From the NCBI GenBank assembly GCA_016870215.1, contig VGCD01000013.1, positions 1 through 54,125 of the forward strand: a DNA stretch of 54,125 bases, given 5' to 3'. Position 1 is the stretch's first letter. The number at the start of each line of letters is the position of its first letter. The notes below the pieces were generated by a model. It was given only the letters and a program-made list of their open reading frames with translations, searched no databases and was not told the DNA's origin. Of this stretch, positions 8,541 through 52,079 are shown piece after piece. This DNA is from Actinomycetota bacterium. GTDB lineage: Bacteria > Actinomycetota > Acidimicrobiia > Acidimicrobiales > Ilumatobacteraceae. A program made the position numbers and the translations under genes.

Positions 8541-9375
8541 GCGAAAAATAGATCGGGACGAGACTTCAATCGTGGTGGACCATCAACGACGCTACCGTTC
8601 GCCCGTGGCTTCGACCGTTCTTTTGCGTCGCTCAGGAGTGCTGTGGACCGGACCCGTGACGGTGCGCGTGCGACCGTGGCCGCATCGAAACGACATGGCA
8701 TACCTTATTCTCTCTGGCGCACACGACGAGGGCTCTGCACTTCCGCACCCTGATGTCATCGCAGACTGGATGCGCGAACTTGCAACTGTCGGTTACCAGT
8801 CAGTTCGCACCACCGCAGTCGCACCAGCCAACGCGGCGCGCTTGGCACAGGCAGGGTTTGCTGCCTGCCAAGAACTCGACTTGCTGAGCGTGGTCATCGA
8901 TGACGCAGTTGTCGAACAGCCGCCGAATGACCTTGGCATTCGCTCCGCAATCACAATCGGGCGACGACTCTTCCCGAGCACTGCAAAACGACTGGAGGAC
9001 ATCGACCGGCGTTCATTCGGTGATGAGTGGTCACTTGATGCAGTGTCTCTTCGTGAAGCGTTACGTGCCACGCATGTGTCTGCTGTGTTCACGGTTGGGA
9101 ACAGCCGACCGCATGGGTTCGTGATTGTCGGCCACACTCGTGGCATCGGATATGTACAACGGCTTGCCGTCGCACCAGATCATCAACGACGTGGAAGTGG
9201 AACCGCACTGATGGCGGTGGCGTACCGCTGGCTTCGTCGCCATCGATGCTCTCAGATAGTCGTGAACACCGAGACCGATAATCATGCAGCCCTTGGTCTG
9301 TATGCCAAATTTGGCTTTCGTCGTCTGCCAAACGGGTTGTCAGTGATGCAACGAGACGTACAGGCTGGGTACTGA
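8539..9375 (+). CDS. GNAT family N-acetyltransferase
   Basis: The C-terminal half is a GNAT domain. FVIVGHTRGIGYVQRLAVAP is the beta4-beta5 region, DHQRRGSGTALM is the acetyl-CoA pyrophosphate loop (R/QxxGxG), and NHAALGLYAKFGFRR is the final helix and strand. The first 120 or so residues are less conserved and may be a degenerate second GNAT lobe. The 8539 ATG gives 278 residues and overlaps the cca start codon; a GTG at 8575 is an alternative. Substrate is unknown. The stop overlaps the next start (TGATG), so the genes are coupled. Confidence 0.8.
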   Translation: MRKIDRDETSIVVDHQRRYRSPVASTVLLRRSGVLWTGPVTVRVRPWPHRNDMAYLILSGAHDEGSALPHPDVIADWMRELATVGYQSVRTTAVAPANAARLAQAGFAACQELDLLSVVIDDAVVEQPPNDLGIRSAITIGRRLFPSTAKRLEDIDRRSFGDEWSLDAVSLREALRATHVSAVFTVGNSRPHGFVIVGHTRGIGYVQRLAVAPDHQRRGSGTALMAVAYRWLRRHRCSQIVVNTETDNHAALGLYAKFGFRRLPNGLSVMQRDVQAGY

Positions 9376-11375
9376 TGTTGTCCATGCGAGGCCCTCGACT
9401 CACGCGAGCTCTGACATTGATGGCATGCGCGACTCTTGCCCTCATCACATCGCCGTTCACTGGCAGCACACGCGTGCACGCAAAAACCACTGGCACATTG
9501 CGCGTGGCGGAACAGCCATTCTCCATCACAACTGCGCGCGCCACATTCGTTTTTCAGACAAGTGCTCTTGCAAACATTCCCTTTGATGCACAATTGAAAG
9601 TTCAGTTGCACAACCCGGTTGCATCACGTGAGTCGTTGCAGTTGGTTGCCGATGAGAGCGTCGCCGTACGCATCACCGACGAAGTCACCTTCGACTACTT
9701 CTTGTTGCCACGTGATTCATTGAATCGACTTGTCGTTGTTGTGCCCATTCAAACCACGAAACCGGCGGCGAATGCGCTTGACCTCATCCAACCTGGGGTC
9801 TACCCCATCACCTTCACCATCGTGTCCGACGACCGTGACCTCGGCAGCACAATGACATTTGTTCATCGCCCGAACGCTGACGATGCGCTGAACAAAGTGA
9901 AGGCGTCATATCTCATCAACTATCTGCCAGATGCTGCCCACGGACCAGACGGCGCCCCCGTCATCACTGATGCGCAACGCACTGCCATGGAGCGTCTCAC
10001 CCAGATAGTGGTTCGAAACAAAGTGCCATTGTCACTCACACTTCCCGCCGAACTGATTGAAGGAATGGCTGAGTCGGCGAACGCGAGTGATTTATTGACT
10101 CTTAGCGACCTCAGCAGTGCTCTTGCCCAACGGTCGATTCTCTCAACAACATATATGCGGCTGTCGCCAAGCACAGCAGTCGTCGAAGGCTTGGACAGCG
10201 AGTTCACGAGACAGTGGCGACTTGCCGAAGACGTCATCGGCGCCAATATTCCAGCAGCGAAACTGCAGCGCTCTGTGTACCCCGAGGCCAACATTCTTGA
10301 TGATCGCGGGGCTGTGCTCCTGCCTGACCTTGGAGTGCGCAGTGTGTTGTTGTATCCCCAATTGTCGGCAGGGCTTGCGCGCACCACACCAAACGGCGTG
10401 ATTGCTCGCATTGCTTTGCCAAACGGGTCGAACCTTGGTGTGTACACCGCACTCGCCAAGGTCGAGGCGTTGTTCGATGACAATGTCTCCGACCCGACAC
10501 GAAGAGGTATTCGTCTGGCGGCCGAACTGGTGATGGAACGAGCTGACTTGTTGCGGGCTGGTTACTCACCGACCGACATTCATCTGGTCATTGCACCACC
10601 TACTGGTTTGGTGCCGCGACCACTCGTCACGTCCAGTTTCCTCGACGCCATTAAAGGAACGTCCGCACTTCAACTTGTCGACTTGTCGAATGTGCCGAGC
10701 GTTGATGCGAATGCGCCGACAATGTCACTTGCGCCGCGATCGGTGGTATCTGTCACCGGTATCGGTGCAGCCATCTATTCACTCAACGTTGAGCGCACCA
10801 CCGTTGGCTCAATGTTGCCAGTTAACGACGCGCGCCTGATCTCGTGGGATCGTCAGTTGGCGATTGTTGCCTCGCGCGGAGCATTGGCGCCGGGCGGTGC
10901 TGACGAGAACATCAACGGACTGAAGCAACAGTTCAACGCCATTCGCCAAGCAGTGTCACTGCCCGAACTCGACTCAGTCACACTCACCGATCGCCGCGGC
11001 ACCATTCGCATCATCTTGCGAAACTCGGCGGACGTGCCTCTGACCGTGCGGCTCACTGTTGCGAGTGCCAAGTTGATACTTCCGCAAGCGTCACAAATCG
11101 TCGAACTTCCGGCATCATCCAGCACCGACGTCACCATTCCGGTTGAAGCCCGATCAAGCGGCACATTCCCGGTCACCATTCGAGTCACCACCCCCACAGG
11201 TCGTGCGCGAGTCGTGTCACCGGTGACCATTACCGCAAACGTGAATGCCATCGCTGGTATCGGACAGTTGGTCGGCTTGTCCGCTTTATTGCTGGTGGGT
11301 GCGTGGTGGTTCGCCCATTGGCGCCGCCAACGACGCGAACAAGCAATTGAAGAGAGTACGGTTGGCGCACCATGA
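9375..11375 (+). CDS. secreted, membrane-anchored DUF6049-like protein
   Basis: The 666-residue protein has a Sec signal peptide (LTRALTLMACATLALITS, cleaved near VHA-KTT) and a long beta-rich exoplasmic region. It ends with one transmembrane helix (IGQLVGLSALLLVGAWWFAHW) and a short basic cytoplasmic tail. By size, topology and place between cca and the MviN/sigma locus it corresponds to M. tuberculosis Rv3909 (DUF6049). I assign the family from this pattern, not a verified alignment. The context suggests a role in envelope biogenesis. It overlaps its neighbours on both sides by one to four bases, which indicates strict cotranslation. Confidence 0.65.
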   Translation: MLSMRGPRLTRALTLMACATLALITSPFTGSTRVHAKTTGTLRVAEQPFSITTARATFVFQTSALANIPFDAQLKVQLHNPVASRESLQLVADESVAVRITDEVTFDYFLLPRDSLNRLVVVVPIQTTKPAANALDLIQPGVYPITFTIVSDDRDLGSTMTFVHRPNADDALNKVKASYLINYLPDAAHGPDGAPVITDAQRTAMERLTQIVVRNKVPLSLTLPAELIEGMAESANASDLLTLSDLSSALAQRSILSTTYMRLSPSTAVVEGLDSEFTRQWRLAEDVIGANIPAAKLQRSVYPEANILDDRGAVLLPDLGVRSVLLYPQLSAGLARTTPNGVIARIALPNGSNLGVYTALAKVEALFDDNVSDPTRRGIRLAAELVMERADLLRAGYSPTDIHLVIAPPTGLVPRPLVTSSFLDAIKGTSALQLVDLSNVPSVDANAPTMSLAPRSVVSVTGIGAAIYSLNVERTTVGSMLPVNDARLISWDRQLAIVASRGALAPGGADENINGLKQQFNAIRQAVSLPELDSVTLTDRRGTIRIILRNSADVPLTVRLTVASAKLILPQASQIVELPASSSTDVTIPVEARSSGTFPVTIRVTTPTGRARVVSPVTITANVNAIAGIGQLVGLSALLLVGAWWFAHWRRQRREQAIEESTVGAP

Positions 11376-12208
11376 CAATTCGAATAGTTACCGACAGCGC
11401 CTGCGACCTTCCCCAAGACGTATGCGACCGCCTGGGCATCGTTGTGGTGCCCCTCTCCATTCGTTTCGGCAACGAAGAATTCACCGACCGAACCGGCATC
11501 ACTGTCGACGAGTTCTGGTCGCGCTGCCATTCGTCGAGCGTGCTTCCCGAAACAGCAGCTCCGGCACCTGGTCAGTTCGAGGCTGCCTATCGCCAGCTGA
11601 AGGCCGACGGAGCAGGCGGCATCTGTGTCATCAACTTGTCTGGTGACCTCTCGGCCACCATGCAAAGTGCCGAATTGGCCGCTAAGTCCGTGGCCGCAGA
11701 CATTCCGATCACGGTGGTTGATAGCCGCACCGTCAGTATGGGTCAGGGTCTCGTGGTGCTCGACTGCGCCGAACGGGCCAAAGCAGGCGCTTCCCTCGAC
11801 GAGGTCGCATCACTTGCTCGCGGTTACGCAGACAAAGTGCACGTGTGGGGTGCTCTCGACACCCTCGAGAACCTGAAGAAGGGTGGCCGTATCGGTGGTG
11901 CCAAAGCCCTGATGGCCACTGCACTTGCCATCAAGCCCATCATCGAAATCCGCAACGGCAAAGTGGAAGAAGGTGGACGTCAGCGCACACGAAGCAAGGC
12001 GCTTGCCTTTCTCATCGACCAAGTTCGCTCCACTCCGAACATCGTGCAGTTGGGTGTCCTTCACGCCAAGTGCCCAGACATCGATCAATTCGTGTCGATG
12101 TTGAAAGAGGTGTATTCCGGTGACATCGTCGTCGGAGACATCGGTGCTGTGGTCGGATCACACGCTGGTGTCGGCACCATCGGAGTTGCATTCCGCGTCG
12201 CGAACTGA
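11372..12208 (+). CDS. DegV family fatty-acid-binding protein
   Basis: This 278-residue protein starts TIRIVTDSACDLPQD, the DegV signature. It has VVPLSIRFGNEEF, the lid segment TAAPAPGQFEAAY, and the second-domain features GLVVLDCAERA and LENLKKGGRIGGAKALM. DegV proteins bind long-chain fatty acids and act with fatty acid kinase (FakB-type) in other bacteria. No kinase partner is in this window. The ATGA overlap with the upstream exoprotein gene suggests coupling. Mycobacteria have no DegV at this position, so it is an insertion relative to that order. Confidence 0.9.
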   Translation: MTIRIVTDSACDLPQDVCDRLGIVVVPLSIRFGNEEFTDRTGITVDEFWSRCHSSSVLPETAAPAPGQFEAAYRQLKADGAGGICVINLSGDLSATMQSAELAAKSVAADIPITVVDSRTVSMGQGLVVLDCAERAKAGASLDEVASLARGYADKVHVWGALDTLENLKKGGRIGGAKALMATALAIKPIIEIRNGKVEEGGRQRTRSKALAFLIDQVRSTPNIVQLGVLHAKCPDIDQFVSMLKEVYSGDIVVGDIGAVVGSHAGVGTIGVAFRVAN

Positions 12209-12225: not shown

Positions 12226-12243
12226 TGCGACGAAATGGTCGCA
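12226..12243. promoter_or_regulatory. small inverted repeat across the kinase start codon
   Basis: TGCGAC at 12226-12231 and GTCGCA at 12238-12243 flank the ATG at 12235. The hairpin could lower translation of the kinase or mark a protein-binding site. It is short and may be chance. Confidence 0.3.
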
Positions 12244-13941
12244 TCGCTGAAGCCCGAAGCATTGATAGGTGGGCGCTATCGCCTCGACCGTTCAATTGCT
12301 GCCGGCGGCATGGCCGAAGTGTGGCTTGCAACCGACATTCAACTCGGTCGTCAAGTGGCAGTGAAGTACTTAAAGGACCACATTGCTGACGACGAAACAG
12401 TTGTCGAGCGATTCCGTCGTGAAGCACAAGCACTTGCGAAGTTGCATCACGAAAACATCGTTCCGATCTATGACATCGTCGAAGAAGGTGCCCGAACATT
12501 TGTCGTCATGAAGTTCGTGGATGGCAAGAGTCTGCGCGAAGTACTCGATGAAGCGCGACGCAAAGACCCTGAACGCAGACCTGCCCGACTTGGTTCATCA
12601 CTCACCGTGCACATCGGTCGCTCCATTGCACTTGCGCTGCAACACGCCCATGACCAAGGAATCGTGCATCGCGACATCAAGCCCGGAAACATTCTTATTT
12701 CCAGTAATGGAAAAGTTCTTCTCTCCGACTTCGGTATCGCAAAAGCAATGCACGGCGGCGAGACCGAGACCGACCTCACCAACCAGAACATCATGATGGG
12801 TACGGCCAAGTACTTGTCGCCTGAGCAAGTGAAAGGTCGACCCCTTGATGGTCGCGCTGATATTTATTCACTTGGGCTTGTGCTGTACGAGTGTCTCGCA
12901 GGAAATGTGCCATTCAAGGGCCAGAACGACCAGGCCATCGCAATTCAACGTTTGCAACGTGACCCCACACCACTTGCACCGCTGTGCCCTGGTGTACCAA
13001 TCAACTTGACCGACGTTGTACACAAGATGTTGCGACGAAAGCCCGAGAGTCGTTACTCAAATGGTCGTGAAGTGTCGACAGCACTTCAGGCTGCACTTGC
13101 AGGCGATCCCAATGCACCAACTCCCGACATGGGTGGCAGTGATCGCAACGCTGTCACGCTTGGTCAAGATCCGCTTATCACGCGCGAACATCCACTGCCG
13201 CCGCAGCGTGACCTCACGCCCGCACCGCCGACAATCGCAACTCAGCCGCGCACGCAGCATGACGATTCGTCTGACATTGAGCGCAGTTCGACCCCGCGCA
13301 CAAATCGTCGACCCGAACGTGCGCTTCCTCGTTCACAACAAACCAATCGGTCCCGTGGCATGTTGGCAGTCGGTGCACTTCTTGTTGCCGTTCTCGTCAC
13401 TAGTTGGCTGTTATGGACCGGCCTGCGTTCTTCACCGTCGACTGCTCCTGCACCAACTGACCCAGCAGCTGCGGCCCCGGTGGACAATTCGCCAGTCACA
13501 GTGGTGGGTTTGAGGAGCTACGACCCCAATGGTGACGATTCAACAGAGAACGAAGCAATGGTGACCGCGTTGTCTGATGGCAACCCAGCTACGTCGTGGG
13601 CGACGTTGTGTTATCAGAACGAATTCTTCGGCAGCAAGCGTGGTGTGGGAATTGTGATGCAGTTGTCACGACCCGCAACCGGACAAGTCAAAGCTGAAGT
13701 GCGCACCTCACCGTGGCGCATCGAAGTATTCGGTGCGCCAACTCTTCCCGACACGCTCGAAGGTTGGGGTGAACCAATGAAGGTGAATAACGGCACCAAC
13801 AGCGGACCTGCCAGCTTCGATGTCACCACTCCTTCATCACACGTGCTCGTGCTCTTCACTCAAATCGGACCTAGCAGCCAATGCAGTAGTGCGAATCCGT
13901 TCAAGGGAGTGTTGAGCGAACTCTCCTTCACGGCCGGGTGA
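12235..13941 (+). CDS. transmembrane Ser/Thr protein kinase with an MviN-type extracellular domain
   Basis: The 568 residues form an N-terminal PknB-like kinase (about 13-290), a Pro/Arg-rich juxtamembrane linker (290-375), one helix (376-396), and an exoplasmic domain (about 420-568). The catalytic set is complete: glycine loop AAGGMAEVW, Lys44 in VAVKYLK, Glu63, HRDIKPGN with Asp147, DFG at 165-167, and GTAKYLSPEQ. The ectodomain starts VTVVGLRSYDP and has ALSDGNPATSWAT and GVGIVMQLSRPA. It resembles the C-terminal extracellular domain of mycobacterial MviN, where it follows a degenerate kinase. Here the kinase looks active and no flippase is attached. Position next to the sigma factor matches mviN-sigM synteny. 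A role in controlling lipid II export or synthesis is inferred. Confidence 0.85.
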   Translation: MVASLKPEALIGGRYRLDRSIAAGGMAEVWLATDIQLGRQVAVKYLKDHIADDETVVERFRREAQALAKLHHENIVPIYDIVEEGARTFVVMKFVDGKSLREVLDEARRKDPERRPARLGSSLTVHIGRSIALALQHAHDQGIVHRDIKPGNILISSNGKVLLSDFGIAKAMHGGETETDLTNQNIMMGTAKYLSPEQVKGRPLDGRADIYSLGLVLYECLAGNVPFKGQNDQAIAIQRLQRDPTPLAPLCPGVPINLTDVVHKMLRRKPESRYSNGREVSTALQAALAGDPNAPTPDMGGSDRNAVTLGQDPLITREHPLPPQRDLTPAPPTIATQPRTQHDDSSDIERSSTPRTNRRPERALPRSQQTNRSRGMLAVGALLVAVLVTSWLLWTGLRSSPSTAPAPTDPAAAAPVDNSPVTVVGLRSYDPNGDDSTENEAMVTALSDGNPATSWATLCYQNEFFGSKRGVGIVMQLSRPATGQVKAEVRTSPWRIEVFGAPTLPDTLEGWGEPMKVNNGTNSGPASFDVTTPSSHVLVLFTQIGPSSQCSSANPFKGVLSELSFTAG

Positions 13942-14546
13942 CGCACATGCATGCGCGCGACGAAGAACTTGTGCGTCGCGCACAAGGCGGAGACCGCAAT
14001 GCCGTCGACTCATTGCTTCGTCGCCACTACGACAAGATTCGTGCTGTCGTGCACCGCATCGTCATTAACACTCACGATGCAGAAGATGCAACGCAGACGG
14101 CGCTCATTGCGATTGCACGAGGTATTGCATCGTTCGATGGGCGATCATCGTTGTCGACGTGGATGTATCGCATTGCGACGAATGCGGCAATTGACGAAGT
14201 GCGTCGCATACGCCGCCGACCACTTCCAACTGATGATGATGTGCAACTCAATCAAATGACTACTGACTCGAATGAAGCAACCGTCACGCAGATGACCGTG
14301 GTACAGGCATTACGCGAGTTGCCCGAGGAGTTTCGCACAGCACTCGTGCTGCGTCATGTCGCCGACCTTGAATATGAAGACATCGCAGCCATCCAGAATG
14401 TGCCAGTCGGCACCGTGCGCTCACGTTTGTCCCGCGCACGCGAACAAATGGCCCGATTGATAGCCGATTCCGAAGGTTTGGGACAGAACGGGAACGAATC
14501 ACACCGCGGACATCGTCAGACTGAAGACCCAGAGGATTCACAGTGA
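13938..14546 (+). CDS. sigM: ECF RNA polymerase sigma factor, SigM-like
   Basis: The 202 residues include sigma region 2 (LLRRHYDKIRAVVHRIV, DAEDATQTALIAIARGI, SLSTWMYRIATNAAIDEVRR) and region 4 (LRELPEEFRTALVLRHVADL, YEDIAAIQNVPVGTVRSRLS). A GTG at 13938 overlaps the kinase stop; an ATG at 13947 is the alternative. The symbol rests on position: in mycobacteria sigM lies between mviN and trxB2 with its anti-sigma gene next. The last 25 residues are a polar tail. Coupling to the kinase upstream and the membrane protein downstream suggests an envelope-signal module. Confidence 0.88.
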   Translation: MTHMHARDEELVRRAQGGDRNAVDSLLRRHYDKIRAVVHRIVINTHDAEDATQTALIAIARGIASFDGRSSLSTWMYRIATNAAIDEVRRIRRRPLPTDDDVQLNQMTTDSNEATVTQMTVVQALRELPEEFRTALVLRHVADLEYEDIAAIQNVPVGTVRSRLSRAREQMARLIADSEGLGQNGNESHRGHRQTEDPEDSQ

Positions 14547-15064
14547 ATACGACACCTCCACCTCCCCAGCCGCCGACATCAGACGGACCGACCGACCTCG
14601 CAATACAGCGAGCGATAAGTGCTGCGCTTGGAAATATGATTGCGGCTGACGACACCACCAAAAATGCTCATATTGCAGCTGCTTTGCAAGCTTTTGATGA
14701 CATGCCAGTCGTCGATCGTGTGGCTGTCGGGTCGGGTCGAAACAGTCGGAACTGGCTCGCCTCTGCTGCAGCTGCTGTAGTTCTTGCCGCCACTGCAGGC
14801 ATTGCTGGGTACCTCGTCAATGGAAGCGGAAAGAGCGACACCACCGTTGCCGCCGAGAAAGATGAAGTGACAACTCGAAACACTGCGACCAATCCCTGTG
14901 GTCAAGCGGTATCAGGTGCTCAGTTTCTGAACACCACAACTGTGGACGGCAAACAAGTGCATCTCTACCTACGAACAGATGCAGGCAAAGTTGAAGTGGT
15001 GCTGCTGAACGCTGAGACATGTGCGCAAGAAAACGCGTATGTTCTCGCCCTCTCGGGTGGATGA
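14543..15064 (+). CDS. putative membrane anti-sigma factor (RsmA-like position)
   Basis: The 173-residue protein starts at a GTG that overlaps the sigma stop (GTGA). It has a Pro-rich N-terminus, a cytoplasmic segment of about 70 residues (LAIQRAISAALGNMI onward), one helix near 74-93 (LASAAAAVVLAATAGIAGYL), and an exoplasmic part with two cysteines (NPCGQAVSG and ETCAQEN) that could form a disulfide. No zinc-type HxxxCxxC anti-sigma motif is visible. The anti-sigma call rests on topology, coupling to the sigma gene, and the equivalent location of Rv3912 next to sigM. Confidence 0.65.
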   Translation: MNTTPPPPQPPTSDGPTDLAIQRAISAALGNMIAADDTTKNAHIAAALQAFDDMPVVDRVAVGSGRNSRNWLASAAAAVVLAATAGIAGYLVNGSGKSDTTVAAEKDEVTTRNTATNPCGQAVSGAQFLNTTTVDGKQVHLYLRTDAGKVEVVLLNAETCAQENAYVLALSGG

Positions 15065-16790: not shown

Positions 16791-17740
16791 TACCGGGCCA
16801 ACGCGGCGACGCTGTCCGCAAACTTCAGCGTCGACTATCGGCTGCAGGTTTCTTGGCTCCGCATGCAGCGGACGACGCAGTATTCTGTGGTCGCACGCAC
16901 GCGGCCTTGCTCGCATTTCAAGATGCGTACGGATTGCGCGCTGATGGTGAATGTGACGAAGTGACATGGTCGATGCTCGTTGAAGCATCGTGGTCACTTG
17001 GCGATCGACTTCTGTATCTGCGCTCACCGAACCTTCGTGGTGACGATGTCGCCGAACTGCAAACACAGCTGTCGCGCCTCGGATTCGACTGCGGTCGGGT
17101 GGATGGCATCTACGGCCCCTTCACAGTGCGGGCAGTCACTGAGTTTCAGCAGAACTGTGGGATGGCCGGGGATGGCATCTGCGGCCCCACCGTGGTTGAC
17201 ACCTTGGGCCGCATCGGAGGCCAAAGCGGCACGGGGCCCGGCATTGCCGCTGTGCGCGAGTCCGAATCTCTCGGTCCCAACAGCGATCTGCACCGCATCG
17301 CCGTCGGGCAATATGGCACCACCAGCAACATTGCCCACGCTGTCAGTCGCCGTCTGAAGGCTGCTTTTCCTCAAACGATCGCGGTGGAAGGTGAACCGGT
17401 GGACCAAGCCCTCACTGCCAATCGATTCGGGGCCGATGTGTATGTGGCAATTGAGCCGTCGCCGGATGCCGGTTGCACCTTCTGTTACTACGAAGTGCCC
17501 ACGTTCTTCAGTGTCGGTGGAAAGTCGCTCGCCCTCAGGCTGTCCGACACGATGTCGAGGAAAATGCCCGACATGCCCTGTCGTATCCAGGGCTTACGCA
17601 TGCCAATCCTGCGGGAAACCAAAATGCCAGCAGTGGTGTGCGCGGTTGGACCAGTCGATGTGGTGTTGCAGCGAGCCACAAAAATGGTTGATGTCATGGT
17701 GTTGGCCGTGGCGGAATGGCTCGCGGAGCCCCTCGGCTAG
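16769..17740 (+). CDS. cwlM: CwlM-like peptidoglycan-binding pseudo-amidase, probable ATT start
   Basis: The protein has two PG_binding_1 repeats (RGDAVRKLQRRLSAAGF near the N-terminus; GDDVAELQTQLSRLGFDCG later) and a degraded Amidase_3 domain. The first repeat is coded upstream of the first ordinary start (TTG 16853), and the frame has no ATG, GTG or TTG before it. The best candidate is ATT at 16769, eight bases after GAGGAG, giving 323 residues. The amidase part lacks the zinc-site GHGG, the Glu, and the His of SIHAN (here AIEPSPD), so it is probably not a hydrolase. Mycobacterial CwlM is likewise non-catalytic. It is a PknB substrate that activates MurA, a role I infer here. It lies between trxA and parB as in mycobacteria. 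Confidence 0.85.
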   Translation: MSSLFPLVPGQRGDAVRKLQRRLSAAGFLAPHAADDAVFCGRTHAALLAFQDAYGLRADGECDEVTWSMLVEASWSLGDRLLYLRSPNLRGDDVAELQTQLSRLGFDCGRVDGIYGPFTVRAVTEFQQNCGMAGDGICGPTVVDTLGRIGGQSGTGPGIAAVRESESLGPNSDLHRIAVGQYGTTSNIAHAVSRRLKAAFPQTIAVEGEPVDQALTANRFGADVYVAIEPSPDAGCTFCYYEVPTFFSVGGKSLALRLSDTMSRKMPDMPCRIQGLRMPILRETKMPAVVCAVGPVDVVLQRATKMVDVMVLAVAEWLAEPLG

Positions 17741-47946: not shown

Positions 47947-48528
47947 GTGCAGGTGGCACGGATACTCGTCATCGACAGTTATGACAGTTTCGTCTACAAC
48001 CTCGTGCAGTACCTGGGTGAGCTTGGTGCCGATCCGGTGGTGGTGCGCAACGACCAAATCACTGTGAGCGAAGCCCACGCCATGGCACCAGACGGAGTGT
48101 TGTTATCACCGGGGCCAGGGCGACCAGAAGAGGCCGGCATTATCTGCGATGCCATCACCGCATTTGCTGGCGTGAAGCCAGTGTTTGGTGTGTGTCTGGG
48201 TCATCAGGCCATCGGACATGTGTATGGCGGCAACGTGGTGCGCGCACCCGAGTTGTTGCACGGCAAGACATCGCACATCACACACGATGGAACGGGAGTG
48301 TTCGAAGGTTTGCCGAACCCGCTTGAAGCGACGCGTTACCACTCACTCGTCATCGACGCAGATTCCATGCCCGATGTGTTGCACGTGACCGCGCGCACGA
48401 GCGACGGAATGGTGATGGGTGTTCGCCATAAGACTGTCGACGTGGAAGGTGTGCAGTTTCACCCAGAGAGCATTCTCACTGCCGCAGGCCATGAGTTGTT
48501 GGCGAACTTCGTTCGCCGTTGCCACTAG
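47947..48528 (+). CDS. pabA: glutamine amidotransferase component of aminodeoxychorismate/anthranilate synthase
   Basis: The 193 residues have the class I amidotransferase triad: [15 protein letters not shown], nucleophile Cys in [16 protein letters not shown], and His-Glu in [14 protein letters not shown]. It releases ammonia from glutamine for the chorismate-binding partner, giving 4-amino-4-deoxychorismate or anthranilate. The partner is not here. It corresponds to Rv0013 (trpG/pabA) between crgA and pknB. GTG 47947 or 47953 is the start. The long upstream frame overlaps crgA and is rejected. Its end overlaps pknB by four bases. Confidence 0.92.
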
Positions 48529-50552
48529 CCAGTTGTTGTTGTAGTCGCACCTGTTGTTGGTGGTGCCGTTGTTGCGGCAGCAGCACGTCCGACTGTGAGC
48601 ACCACAGTTGACTGCGGGTTAGCGAGGCTGTTTGCCGCTGTTCCTTGCGTGATCACCTTGCCGTCGCTGGAACTTCCTGCGGGTACTTCGATATAGCGCA
48701 CATCTGCAGACAAGTTCACCTGCGCCAACTTGTTGCGCGCGTCGCCTTCGGTGAGGCCTTCAACTGCGGGCACGGTCACCTGTTGTGGGCCAGAGCTGAC
48801 AAACAACGTGACTGCACGGCCAGCGTCGGCCGGTGTTCCGAATGCAGGGTCGGTGCGAATGACCAATCCCTTTGCAACGGCTCCACTTGCCTCTTCAGTG
48901 ACAGTGACGACGAACTTGTACGGCGCTGCCTGCAGTGTCTCTTGCGCAGCAGTGCTGGTGAAGCCACCGACACTTGGCACCACAACTTGGCCAGCGCCGC
49001 CCGACACAATGACTTTCACTGCTTCGCCTGGTCGTAGCTCTCCACCAGCTTGCGGATCTTGCAGGATCACTTGGCCGAGAGCCAATGTCGGGTCGTTGCG
49101 CACTTCGCTGACAGTGAGCTCAAGGCCAAGTGGCGCCAACTTGGCAGTTGCGTCCTTCACCGAAAGGCCTTGAATTGCGGGCACTTTCACAGGCGCTTTG
49201 GCGGGGTTGTAGGTGAGCGTCACCGACTCACCGGTCTTCAACTCTGTTCCGGGTGCAGGGTCTTGTGCGTACACGATGTTGTCGTCGACACCGTTTTTTG
49301 CCGTGGCTTTCGGCACGGCAACCAAACCAAGATCAACCAATTGTTGCGACGCAGTCGACAACTGAATGTCGGTGAGGTTCGGAACAGAAATTGCTGATGA
49401 CCCGCTGTTCAAGAACGATGCAATGAGCACCCCCATACCAACAACTGCCAACACCACAGCAACGATGGCGCCAATGATGTAGCCACTCATACGCCGCGTC
49501 TCGTTCTCATACATTGCATCGTCATCGCGCACGCCGCCAGAGCTCGGTCCGCCGACTGCTGGCATCATCTGTGTTGCTGCGTTTGGGTTCGTGGCATCAG
49601 CACCAATGCGAGGTAACACGCCGGTGGCACCAGGGTCAGAGGGCAACGCACTCATGGCCGTGGTGACGGCTTCAGCAGATGCGCCACCGCGTGCTTCGAT
49701 CAGCGCGCCAACATCGGCACCTTCCCGGAATCGACGAAGATCGTCACGCACTGCCTCGGCAGTTTGATAACGAACATCGGGAAACTTCGCCAGACACTTC
49801 GCCACAATCGCTTCGAATGAACGCGGAATGCCGTCGACCAGTTGATTGAGAGGCGTGGGCATGTCGTGCACTTGTTTGTATGCAGTAGCGACAGCGTTTT
49901 CGCCCACGAACGGCGGACGACCAGCAACCATTTCGTACAACACAATGCCAAGTGAGTACAGGTCGCTGCGCGGGTCGGGTTGTGCACCTTGTGCTTGCTC
50001 AGGTGAGAAGTAGGTGGCAGTACCCATGACGGCACCGTCTTGGGTGAGATTGTTGTCGTGTGCTGCGTCGATGGCACGTGCAATGCCGAAGTCGGCAACC
50101 TTCACGTCTCCGTTCGACCCAATGAGAATGTTCGCGGGCTTCACGTCGCGATGCACCACACCGTTGCGGTGGGCAAAGGCCAGTGCGGCAGCTACTTCAA
50201 CGGCAACGTCGCTTGCTTGGTTGGGGGTCAACTTGCCCTGCATGCGCAGAATGTCGGCCAAGGTGCGACCCTGCACGAATTCCATCGCCATGAAATAGGT
50301 GTTGCCGCTGCGTCCCCAGTCGTACACCCCGACGATGTTGGGGTGGTTCAAGTTGGCGGCCGACTGGGCCTCGCGGCGGAAACGTTCAACGAAGGCAGGG
50401 TCGGTGGCGAACTCGGGGAACAGCACCTTGATGGCGACGGGTCGGTCGAGCAGCAAGTCGCGCGCCAAGAAAACGTCGGCCATGCCACCTCTGCCGACGC
50501 GGCGTTCGATCTCGTAGCGGTCGTTCACCACCATGCGGTTCTGGTCACTCAT
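48525..50552 (-). CDS. pknB: Ser/Thr protein kinase PknB with four PASTA domains
   Basis: The 675 residues have a kinase domain (about 13-275) with glycine loop [10 protein letters not shown], Lys42 in VAIKVL, Glu61, [10 protein letters not shown] with Asp136, DFG at 154-156 and [11 protein letters not shown] juxtamembrane region and one helix (about 353-379) follow, then four PASTA repeats (starting [30 protein letters not shown] and [10 protein letters not shown]) that bind muropeptides or lipid II. It ends in a Thr-rich tail. It senses cell-wall precursors and phosphorylates proteins such as CwlM, MviN and FhaA in mycobacteria. A pknA gene, normally between pknB and pbpA, is absent here. 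Confidence 0.97.
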
Positions 50553-50585: not shown

Positions 50586-52079
50586 TCAGGGAATAAGAGG
50601 TAGCGCGGCATCGAGCAGTCGTTTTGCGACTGGCCCAGCAAGTTTTCCGCCAGTTCCTGCGCTGATTTCCTCATTCACGCCCTTCAACATCACCGCAACA
50701 GCAACGCGCGGTTGTTCAGCTGGCGCAAAACCCATGATCCAGGCGTGTGAGCGTTGTTTCCTCGGATCATCGAACAACTGCGCAGTGCCTGTTTTCGCTG
50801 CTGCTCGCACACCGTTCTTCAGTTGCATGCAACATGCCGCAGTACCTTCTCGCACCACACCTTCCATGAGAGTCGTCATGGTGCGCGCTGTTGCAGCAGT
50901 CATCGGAGTTTTCCAAGGCTGTGGCTGAGTGTCGCTGATGACGGTGTTGTCGTGGGCAACACGACGTTGCACCACATACGGCTTCATCATCACACCGCCA
51001 TTTGCAACTGACGACGCGATCATCGCCATGTGCAATGGAGTGAGCTGAACTCCGCCTTGACCAAAACCATGAATGGCGAGAAGTGCGAGGGAGTTCTTGA
51101 AATAGTCAGCGTCGCCACCAAAAGTGCTGGTCGCCGCACCAGGAAGATCAATCGGCACGGCTTCTTCCAGACCGAACCCTTTGACCCCGTTCACCATGGT
51201 GTCGGGGCCGAGTGCAACTGCAGTTTGTGCAAACGGAATGTTGCACGAACGAAGAAAGACTTCAGCTAGGTCACCACCACATGTTTTCTTTCGGTAGTTC
51301 TGAATGGGATTGTCGGTGTTTGGTGGAACCCACTTGTTTGTCACGGGAAAGTTCGACAAGTTGTTCAACGTGCCGGTCTCAAGACCAATGGAAGTTGTCA
51401 ACACCTTGAACGTCGAGCCCGGCATGTAACGCTCTTGATATGCATTGGCGAGAAGAGGCTTTTCCTTGTCGGCTTGCAATGCCATCAACACATCGTTTGC
51501 TGCACCGGTGTCATGACTGGCCACCTGGTTTGGGTCAAACGTGGGGTTCGAATACATCGCCAGAACTGCGCCGGTGCGAGGGTCCATCACAACTGCACTG
51601 CCCACGCGGCCCTTGAGTGCTTGTTTGGCCACCTTTTGCAGGTCGGAACGAACTGTGAGCTCTACCGTTCCGGTGAGATCACGTGTGAAGAGGTCGTCGA
51701 CACCTTGTACTTGTTGTTGGCCTGTCTTGCCAGTGAGCACGTCGTTCTCGGTGCGTTCAAGTTGCGTGGCTCCGAATGCGACGGTGTAGTAGCCGGTGAT
51801 GTTGGCGAACAGGTCACCTTCGGGGTACTCGCGTTGATATTGAAAGCGTGCGTTTGGACGTGTCTTTGGGTCAATCTTCACTGTGCGCGCAACAACGTCG
51901 CCGTCTGAAGTGACGATGCGCCCGCGTGGAGAGTTGAACTGTCGTACCGTCACACGGTTATTGCGCGCATCTTCCACCAACGAGTCGCGTTGCAAGAACT
52001 GCCAACGATTCACCTGCAGGAATAACACCGCATACAACACGATGAATGCCATGGCAAGGTGACGAATGCGAATGTTCAC
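50586..52079 (-). CDS. pbpA: class B penicillin-binding protein (PbpA)
   Basis: The 497 residues have an N-terminal helix (LAMAFIVLYAVLFLQVNRWQ), the pedestal domain (RQFNSPRGRIVTSDG), and a transpeptidase domain with nucleophile Ser222 in STFK, SCN at 278-280, and KTG at 429-431. It crosslinks peptidoglycan and pairs with the RodA/FtsW glycosyltransferase coded immediately upstream. Its start overlaps the rodA stop (ATGA). The domain order matches mycobacterial PbpA in the pstP-rodA-pbpA-pknA-pknB operon. Confidence 0.96.
   Translation of the reverse strand: MNIRIRHLAMAFIVLYAVLFLQVNRWQFLQRDSLVEDARNNRVTVRQFNSPRGRIVTSDGDVVARTVKIDPKTRPNARFQYQREYPEGDLFANITGYYTVAFGATQLERTENDVLTGKTGQQQVQGVDDLFTRDLTGTVELTVRSDLQKVAKQALKGRVGSAVVMDPRTGAVLAMYSNPTFDPNQVASHDTGAANDVLMALQADKEKPLLANAYQERYMPGSTFKVLTTSIGLETGTLNNLSNFPVTNKWVPPNTDNPIQNYRKKTCGGDLAEVFLRSCNIPFAQTAVALGPDTMVNGVKGFGLEEAVPIDLPGAATSTFGGDADYFKNSLALLAIHGFGQGGVQLTPLHMAMIASSVANGGVMMKPYVVQRRVAHDNTVISDTQPQPWKTPMTAATARTMTTLMEGVVREGTAACCMQLKNGVRAAAKTGTAQLFDDPRKQRSHAWIMGFAPAEQPRVAVAVMLKGVNEEISAGTGGKLAGPVAKRLLDAALPLIP

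Follow-up and report, generated by a model that had tools for sequence, protein, structure and literature searches.

A probable stand-alone equivalent of the kinase and ectodomain of mycobacterial MviN, with intact kinase motifs, in an Ilumatobacteraceae genome

The window analysed here, a 54,125-nucleotide stretch of contig VGCD01000013.1 (GenBank assembly GCA_016870215.1, an Actinomycetota bacterium of the order Acidimicrobiales), carries a receptor Ser/Thr kinase gene (12235..13941, + strand, ATG start) whose open reading frame, translation and Pfam matches describe a 568-aa protein composed of a kinase domain, a linker, a transmembrane (TM) helix and an ectodomain. The gene bears on the puzzle posed by mycobacterial MviN, a flippase that carries a dead kinase and an extracellular domain in the same polypeptide. 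The gene order around it reads pcnA, GNAT, DUF6049, degV, kinase, extracytoplasmic function (ECF) sigma factor, small protein, holin-like, trxB, trxA, peptidoglycan-binding gene, parB and parA. Pfam searches identified the DUF6049 gene (9375..11375, +), the DegV-family gene immediately upstream of the kinase (11372..12208, +) and the ECF sigma factor gene at the sigM position (13938..14546, +), the GTG start of which overlaps the kinase stop codon (GTGA). The small protein that follows (14543..15064, +) has one hydrophobic stretch, by eye, and no Pfam family above its cut-off; it is a probable anti-sigma factor, by position. A peptidoglycan-binding-domain gene (16853..17740, +; Pfam) occupies the position of cwlM in the mycobacterial gene order. 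Compared with the gene order of Mycobacterium tuberculosis, the kinase lies between the DUF6049 and sigM-trxB-trxA genes, with degV intervening after DUF6049, which bears out the proposal of an earlier note on this sequence that it occupies the mviN locus. Many loci from outside the order have this gene frame too, degV often being absent and DUF6049 followed by murJ, and family f89 has it with a fused MviN; in some relatives murJ sits between the DUF6049 gene and degV. In family f72 (loci L147 and L166), outside the window's order, degV also lies between murJ and the kinase gene. Here and below, L, G and f denote loci, genomes and family codes, respectively, the window's genome being G000.

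The kinase domain (aa 10-290; 12262..13104, +) was delimited by PF00069, residue alignment and alignments to PknB and PknA. It matches PF00069 over aa 15-275 with 172.4 bits (cut-off 31.7) and, in alignment, keeps Lys44, Glu63 and Asn152 together with Asp147 within VHRDIKPGN and Asp165 within DFG. The earlier note had listed four of these residues (Lys44, Glu63, HRD Asp147 and DFG Asp165), all of which are indeed present. With a PF00069 match above cut-off and the catalytic Lys, Glu, Asp, Asn and Asp in place, the protein classes as a Hanks-type Ser/Thr kinase and, to judge from its sequence, is probably catalytically competent. A variable Thr/Pro-rich juxtamembrane linker (aa 291-374; 13105..13356, +) separates this domain from a single TM helix assigned by hydropathy (about aa 375-397; 13357..13425, +). 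Since a basic stretch precedes the hydrophobic helix on its N-terminal side, the kinase is expected on the inner side of the membrane and the C-terminal domain on the outer side. The ratio of nonsynonymous to synonymous divergence (dN/dS) relative to locus L007 is 0.034 for the kinase and 0.029 for the ectodomain, indicating strong purifying selection on both, and dN against the same relative is highest, among the three regions measured, in the linker (0.19).

The ectodomain (about aa 420-568; 13492..13938, +) was identified as a homologue of the MviN C-terminal domain by profile match and further characterized by a structural model. Comparison of the sequence profile with the MviN C-terminal ectodomain gave a score of 99.8% (E 1.9e-28), so that the MviN-type assignment made in the earlier note stands. 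The structure prediction proposed there, run on aa 421-568 of the window protein alone, returned with moderate confidence a carbohydrate-binding-type model with a CBM32 / F5-8 type C-like (galactose-binding-like jelly-roll) fold, resembling that of CBM32 and F5-8 type C (discoidin) carbohydrate-binding domains, and the ectodomain of relative L148 exceeds the Pfam cut-off for F5_F8_type_C_2. Cysteines 459 and 550, which also occur in those f1 and named relatives that were read whole, may form a disulfide. It is likely that the window gene corresponds, in unfused form, to the C-terminal half of MviN from mycobacteria (Rv3910; PDB 3OUN, 3UQC, 3OTV), and that it encodes a probably catalytically competent single-pass receptor kinase. 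The two proteins agree in ectodomain homology by profile, in the kinase-TM-ectodomain order and in locus. They differ in that the window protein lacks a MurJ domain and has intact motifs, whereas MviN has VALT and no HRD or DFG (PMC12599244 Table 1); a kinase-like domain devoid of catalytic motifs is thus a trait of MviN that the window kinase does not share.

The flippase described as missing in the earlier note is absent from the locus but not from the genome. A whole-assembly search with PF03023 detected no match on the window's contig, one strong match (E 1.5e-82, contig C15) and, on contig C1, a weak one that stays below the cut-off, with no second MurJ at E 1e-20. Loss of the flippase from the genome is hence ruled out by the C15 match. 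In a MurJ tree of 59 rows, the MurJ of this genome falls in a 14-row clade (99, a starred branch) with those of L078 and L060, where murJ is still found within the kinase locus, and the phylogeny suggests that the flippase gene probably moved out of the locus in this lineage. The arrangement seen in the window is itself probably derived, because several other families have murJ beside the kinase gene. In L049:6235-8028 and L076:11030-13234, murJ is at the same place but belongs to a different clade from L078, L060 and the window genome's MurJ; the flippase seems to have been swapped at the locus in some lineages, judging by these two. Long open frames in L055, L119 and L120, considered as MurJ fusions, were rejected, the frames containing no MurJ.

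Ectodomain profile matches were obtained in 170 of the 396 genomes of the phylum and in 90 of the 148 genomes of the order; the 60 regions read from the phylum search are better-scoring or deliberately picked matches, not a random sample. Throughout, a kinase was termed degenerate when not all five aligned residues were kept, a category that includes L263, which retains the Lys, both Asp and the Asn. Within the order, kinase reading frames could be counted in 87 of the 90 ectodomain-positive genomes, including the window's own (75 intact, 12 degenerate), leaving out G001, with a 44-aa frame, as well as G047 and G131, truncated at contig ends. The first sample of the order, selected by similarity to the window kinase, had been intact throughout (43/43, window and named loci included), whereas 52 further loci picked by ectodomain comprised 39 intact and 12 degenerate kinases and one that was cut off; the early all-intact picture was biased because the first loci had been chosen by kinase similarity. 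Overall, the 122 loci that have two or more marker genes fall under 54 family labels, of which 52 are codes and two stand for named records; they contain 88 intact and 34 degenerate kinases. Duplicates (L188, L186, L197, L198), cut loci (L129, L144, L062, L010) and a locus without flanks (L134) were excluded before counting, and L156, with a single marker gene, was dropped from the 122. By family label, 36 are intact throughout, 15 are degenerate throughout and three are mixed (f102, f90, f30). Loss of catalytic residues may have occurred repeatedly. On a tree of the ectodomain only (123 rows) the distribution needs 13 state changes, of which the starred branches force just three. Among the intact loci, murJ is lacking in 60 and adjacent in 28 (55 and 25 when at least 3 kb of upstream sequence is available); among the degenerate ones it is lacking in 10, adjacent in 18 and fused in six (10, 17 and five with at least 3 kb upstream). 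Independent-pair tests revealed no significant link between murJ adjacency and residue loss, and the degenerate kinases without adjacent murJ are those of L157, L158, L152 and seven loci of the order. Within family f30, L263:5863-7443 and L246:2547-4118 differ in that all five residues are present in one kinase, while in the other HRD reads HGD and the Glu is gone; this pair is, on its sequences, a young step of kinase decay. Genome G290, of fusion family f89, encodes away from its mviN locus a separate kinase with the five residues and the same ectodomain (L117:7521-9653).

The window gene probably represents an older, unfused and still active state of the MviN regulator. The earlier note had suggested an ancestral active form that was later fused and then silenced, and the first part of this proposal agrees with the frequency of unfused, intact kinases with this ectodomain among the Actinomycetota loci read. 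The order of events was probably the reverse, because the fusions of f89 cluster with pseudokinases that, in other families, are not fused. The MviN fusions constitute one clade adjoining the unfused pseudokinases of f84, f93, f96 and f116 (96, starred, in the combined tree; 99/93, starred, in the kinase tree), and their MurJs adjoin those of f84, f93 and f96 (99, starred, in the MurJ tree). The simplest reading of these trees is that silencing came first and fusion later, although long-branch attraction and midpoint rooting call for caution.

Under this interpretation, the protein would cross the membrane once, with its kinase domain inside and its carbohydrate-binding-type domain outside, and the latter would bind a cell-wall glycan or a ligand carried on lipid II. 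Ligand binding could alter dimerisation and autophosphorylation, and FHA proteins and wall enzymes might then carry the effect of the phosphorylated sites to wall synthesis; the overlapping ECF sigma gene may be a further target. Catalytic residues would have been lost in several lineages, the kinase presumably being kept as a scaffold, and in f89, which includes mycobacterial MviN, an already silent kinase would have been joined to the neighbouring murJ. A broader and more tentative extension, which we hold possible but rather less likely than not to be correct in full, is that an Actinomycetota-wide, MurJ-paired receptor-kinase module reads the state of the wall or of lipid II through its CBM32-like ectodomain and acts on wall synthesis and an ECF sigma factor, having lost catalysis several times and been fused once, as a scaffold, in MviN, while the active kinase of the window controls the flippase pathway from a distance. 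MviN itself has a role in wall synthesis (PMC12599244) and recruits FhaA when a Thr is phosphorylated by PknB (PMC12599244, PMC10166564). Gene linkage could instead be taken to mean that the main target of the kinase is the ECF sigma factor encoded by the overlapping gene, with little tie to the relocated MurJ. The GTGA overlap, the presence of the sigma factor as next gene in 67 of 72 loci of the profiled families and the location of murJ elsewhere in this genome would all fit this view; linkage alone is nonetheless weak evidence, and the sigma gene is likewise found after the fused MviN, for which a part in wall synthesis has been published (PMC12599244); we consider this alternative unlikely.

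It is also conceivable that a PknB-type kinase exchanged its PASTA repeats for an MviN-type ectodomain, in a domain shuffle without shared descent of the whole kinase half. The window kinase shares with PknB / Stk1 PASTA kinases an intact Hanks kinase domain, a single TM helix and an extracellular part; among solved structures PknB and PknA tie as its best match, and its best NCBIfam match is NF033483 (PknB_PASTA_kin). It differs from them in its locus, in having no match to the PASTA family at E 0.1 (Pfam) and in its NCBIfam score of 351.5 bits, below the cut-off of 450. In a quick tree of 103 kinases, from which degenerate rows were omitted, the window kinase lies among ectodomain kinases and 12 rows including this genome's PknB form their own clade (96, starred). 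In a careful tree of 56 kinases, a branch splits 43 ectodomain kinases, MviN fusions included, from 13 others (92/63, 94% of bootstrap trees), and six PknB rows again form their own clade (100/95, starred). The tree comparison suggested in the earlier note thus places the window kinase apart from the PknB clade in the best trees, but approximately unbiased (AU) tests do not reject a grouping with PknB, either for the order's kinases (p 0.087) or for f89 and related MviN-type pseudokinases (p 0.13). These non-rejections weigh against the unfused MviN counterpart reading, as do several further observations: the kinase-tree branch that joins them lacks strong support and involves long pseudokinase branches; the PASTA-like kinases of L120, L125, L146 and L162 fall outside the main PknB clade, beside three ectodomain kinases; unlike CBM32 and F5-8 type C domains, the window ectodomain is not matched by any Pfam family at E up to 10; its model falls below a predicted local distance difference test (pLDDT) score of 50 at residues 29-47; and FhaA_N was not found in this assembly, whose window contig ends inside pstP. 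As the contig ends there, fhaA may lie in a gap; within this family, FhaA_N was found in G006, G102 and G134 but not in G000 or G064, and the one FHA protein found in the assembly has a zinc-ribbon-like start. Given the weak split and the AU results, common descent with MviN rests more on the ectodomain, the domain order and the locus. All 122 loci and 54 family labels share the MviN-half locus and the kinase-TM-ectodomain order, which argues against a shuffle and renders it improbable.

Elsewhere in the window, a pknB-like kinase gene with PASTA-like repeats (48525..50552, -; Pfam and gene order) lies beside a pbpA-like gene (50586-52079; gene order), with no pknA between them, as the earlier note had observed. 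The assembly (91.8% complete) yields three PF00069 matches at E 0.001, of which two look intact. The third, L005:1228-3390 on contig C11, has PASTA-like repeats by eye, with VGMR for VAIK, HGD for HRD and GFG for DFG, and is by its sequence a probable PASTA pseudokinase. That the window kinase is a functional substitute for the missing PknA is marginally less probable still than the shuffle: the pknA-less pair, the mere two intact-looking kinases and the similarity of the kinase domain to PknA (E 2.1e-56) speak for it, but the gene sits at the mviN locus rather than at the pknB operon, and grouping with the true PknA L176 (E 3.4e-181 to PknA chains) was rejected by the AU test (p 0.019), which rejects common descent with a true PknA and disfavours replacement of PknA by descent, the earlier note having suggested that the kinase could replace PknA. 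Grouping with L172, called PknA by position, was not rejected (p 0.084), and L172 matches PknB best; an earlier joint AU test treating both rows as PknA (p 0.011) was therefore withdrawn, L176 alone being a true PknA.

The window gene is best read as encoding a live-looking, unfused receptor kinase of the MviN type. According to a figure legend (PMC10166564, S6 Fig), unextended mviN is in many cases followed by a 'protein kinase family protein' gene, and this stand-alone gene resembles the window gene in being a separate kinase gene at the mviN locus; murJ is adjacent there and not in the window, and the legend gives neither catalytic residues nor an ectodomain. The same paper confines the extended pseudokinase domain to organisms with an arabinogalactan layer. 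MviN is filed under the ActPs3 pseudokinases, the other members of which lack its carbohydrate-binding domain (PMC12599244). The degraded catalytic motifs of that class are not a trait of the window kinase, and the unfused pseudokinases of f84, f93, f96 and f116, whether or not they belong to that class, carry the MviN-type ectodomain. The partial texts of PMC3601408, PMC11898655 and PMC12419801 describe no intact MviN-type kinase, and no paper on an intact kinase with an MviN-type ectodomain was found in the open literature to which the search extended. A live-looking relative at the same locus, free of the flippase, is a convenient protein in which to look for ligand and substrates, and comparison of families, with their repeated loss of catalytic residues, can test how a signalling enzyme turns into a scaffold. 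Finally, the kinase of L010, on a contig titled Acidobacteria, is nearly identical to that of the Actinomycetota locus L008, and the contig is probably mislabelled or mis-binned.
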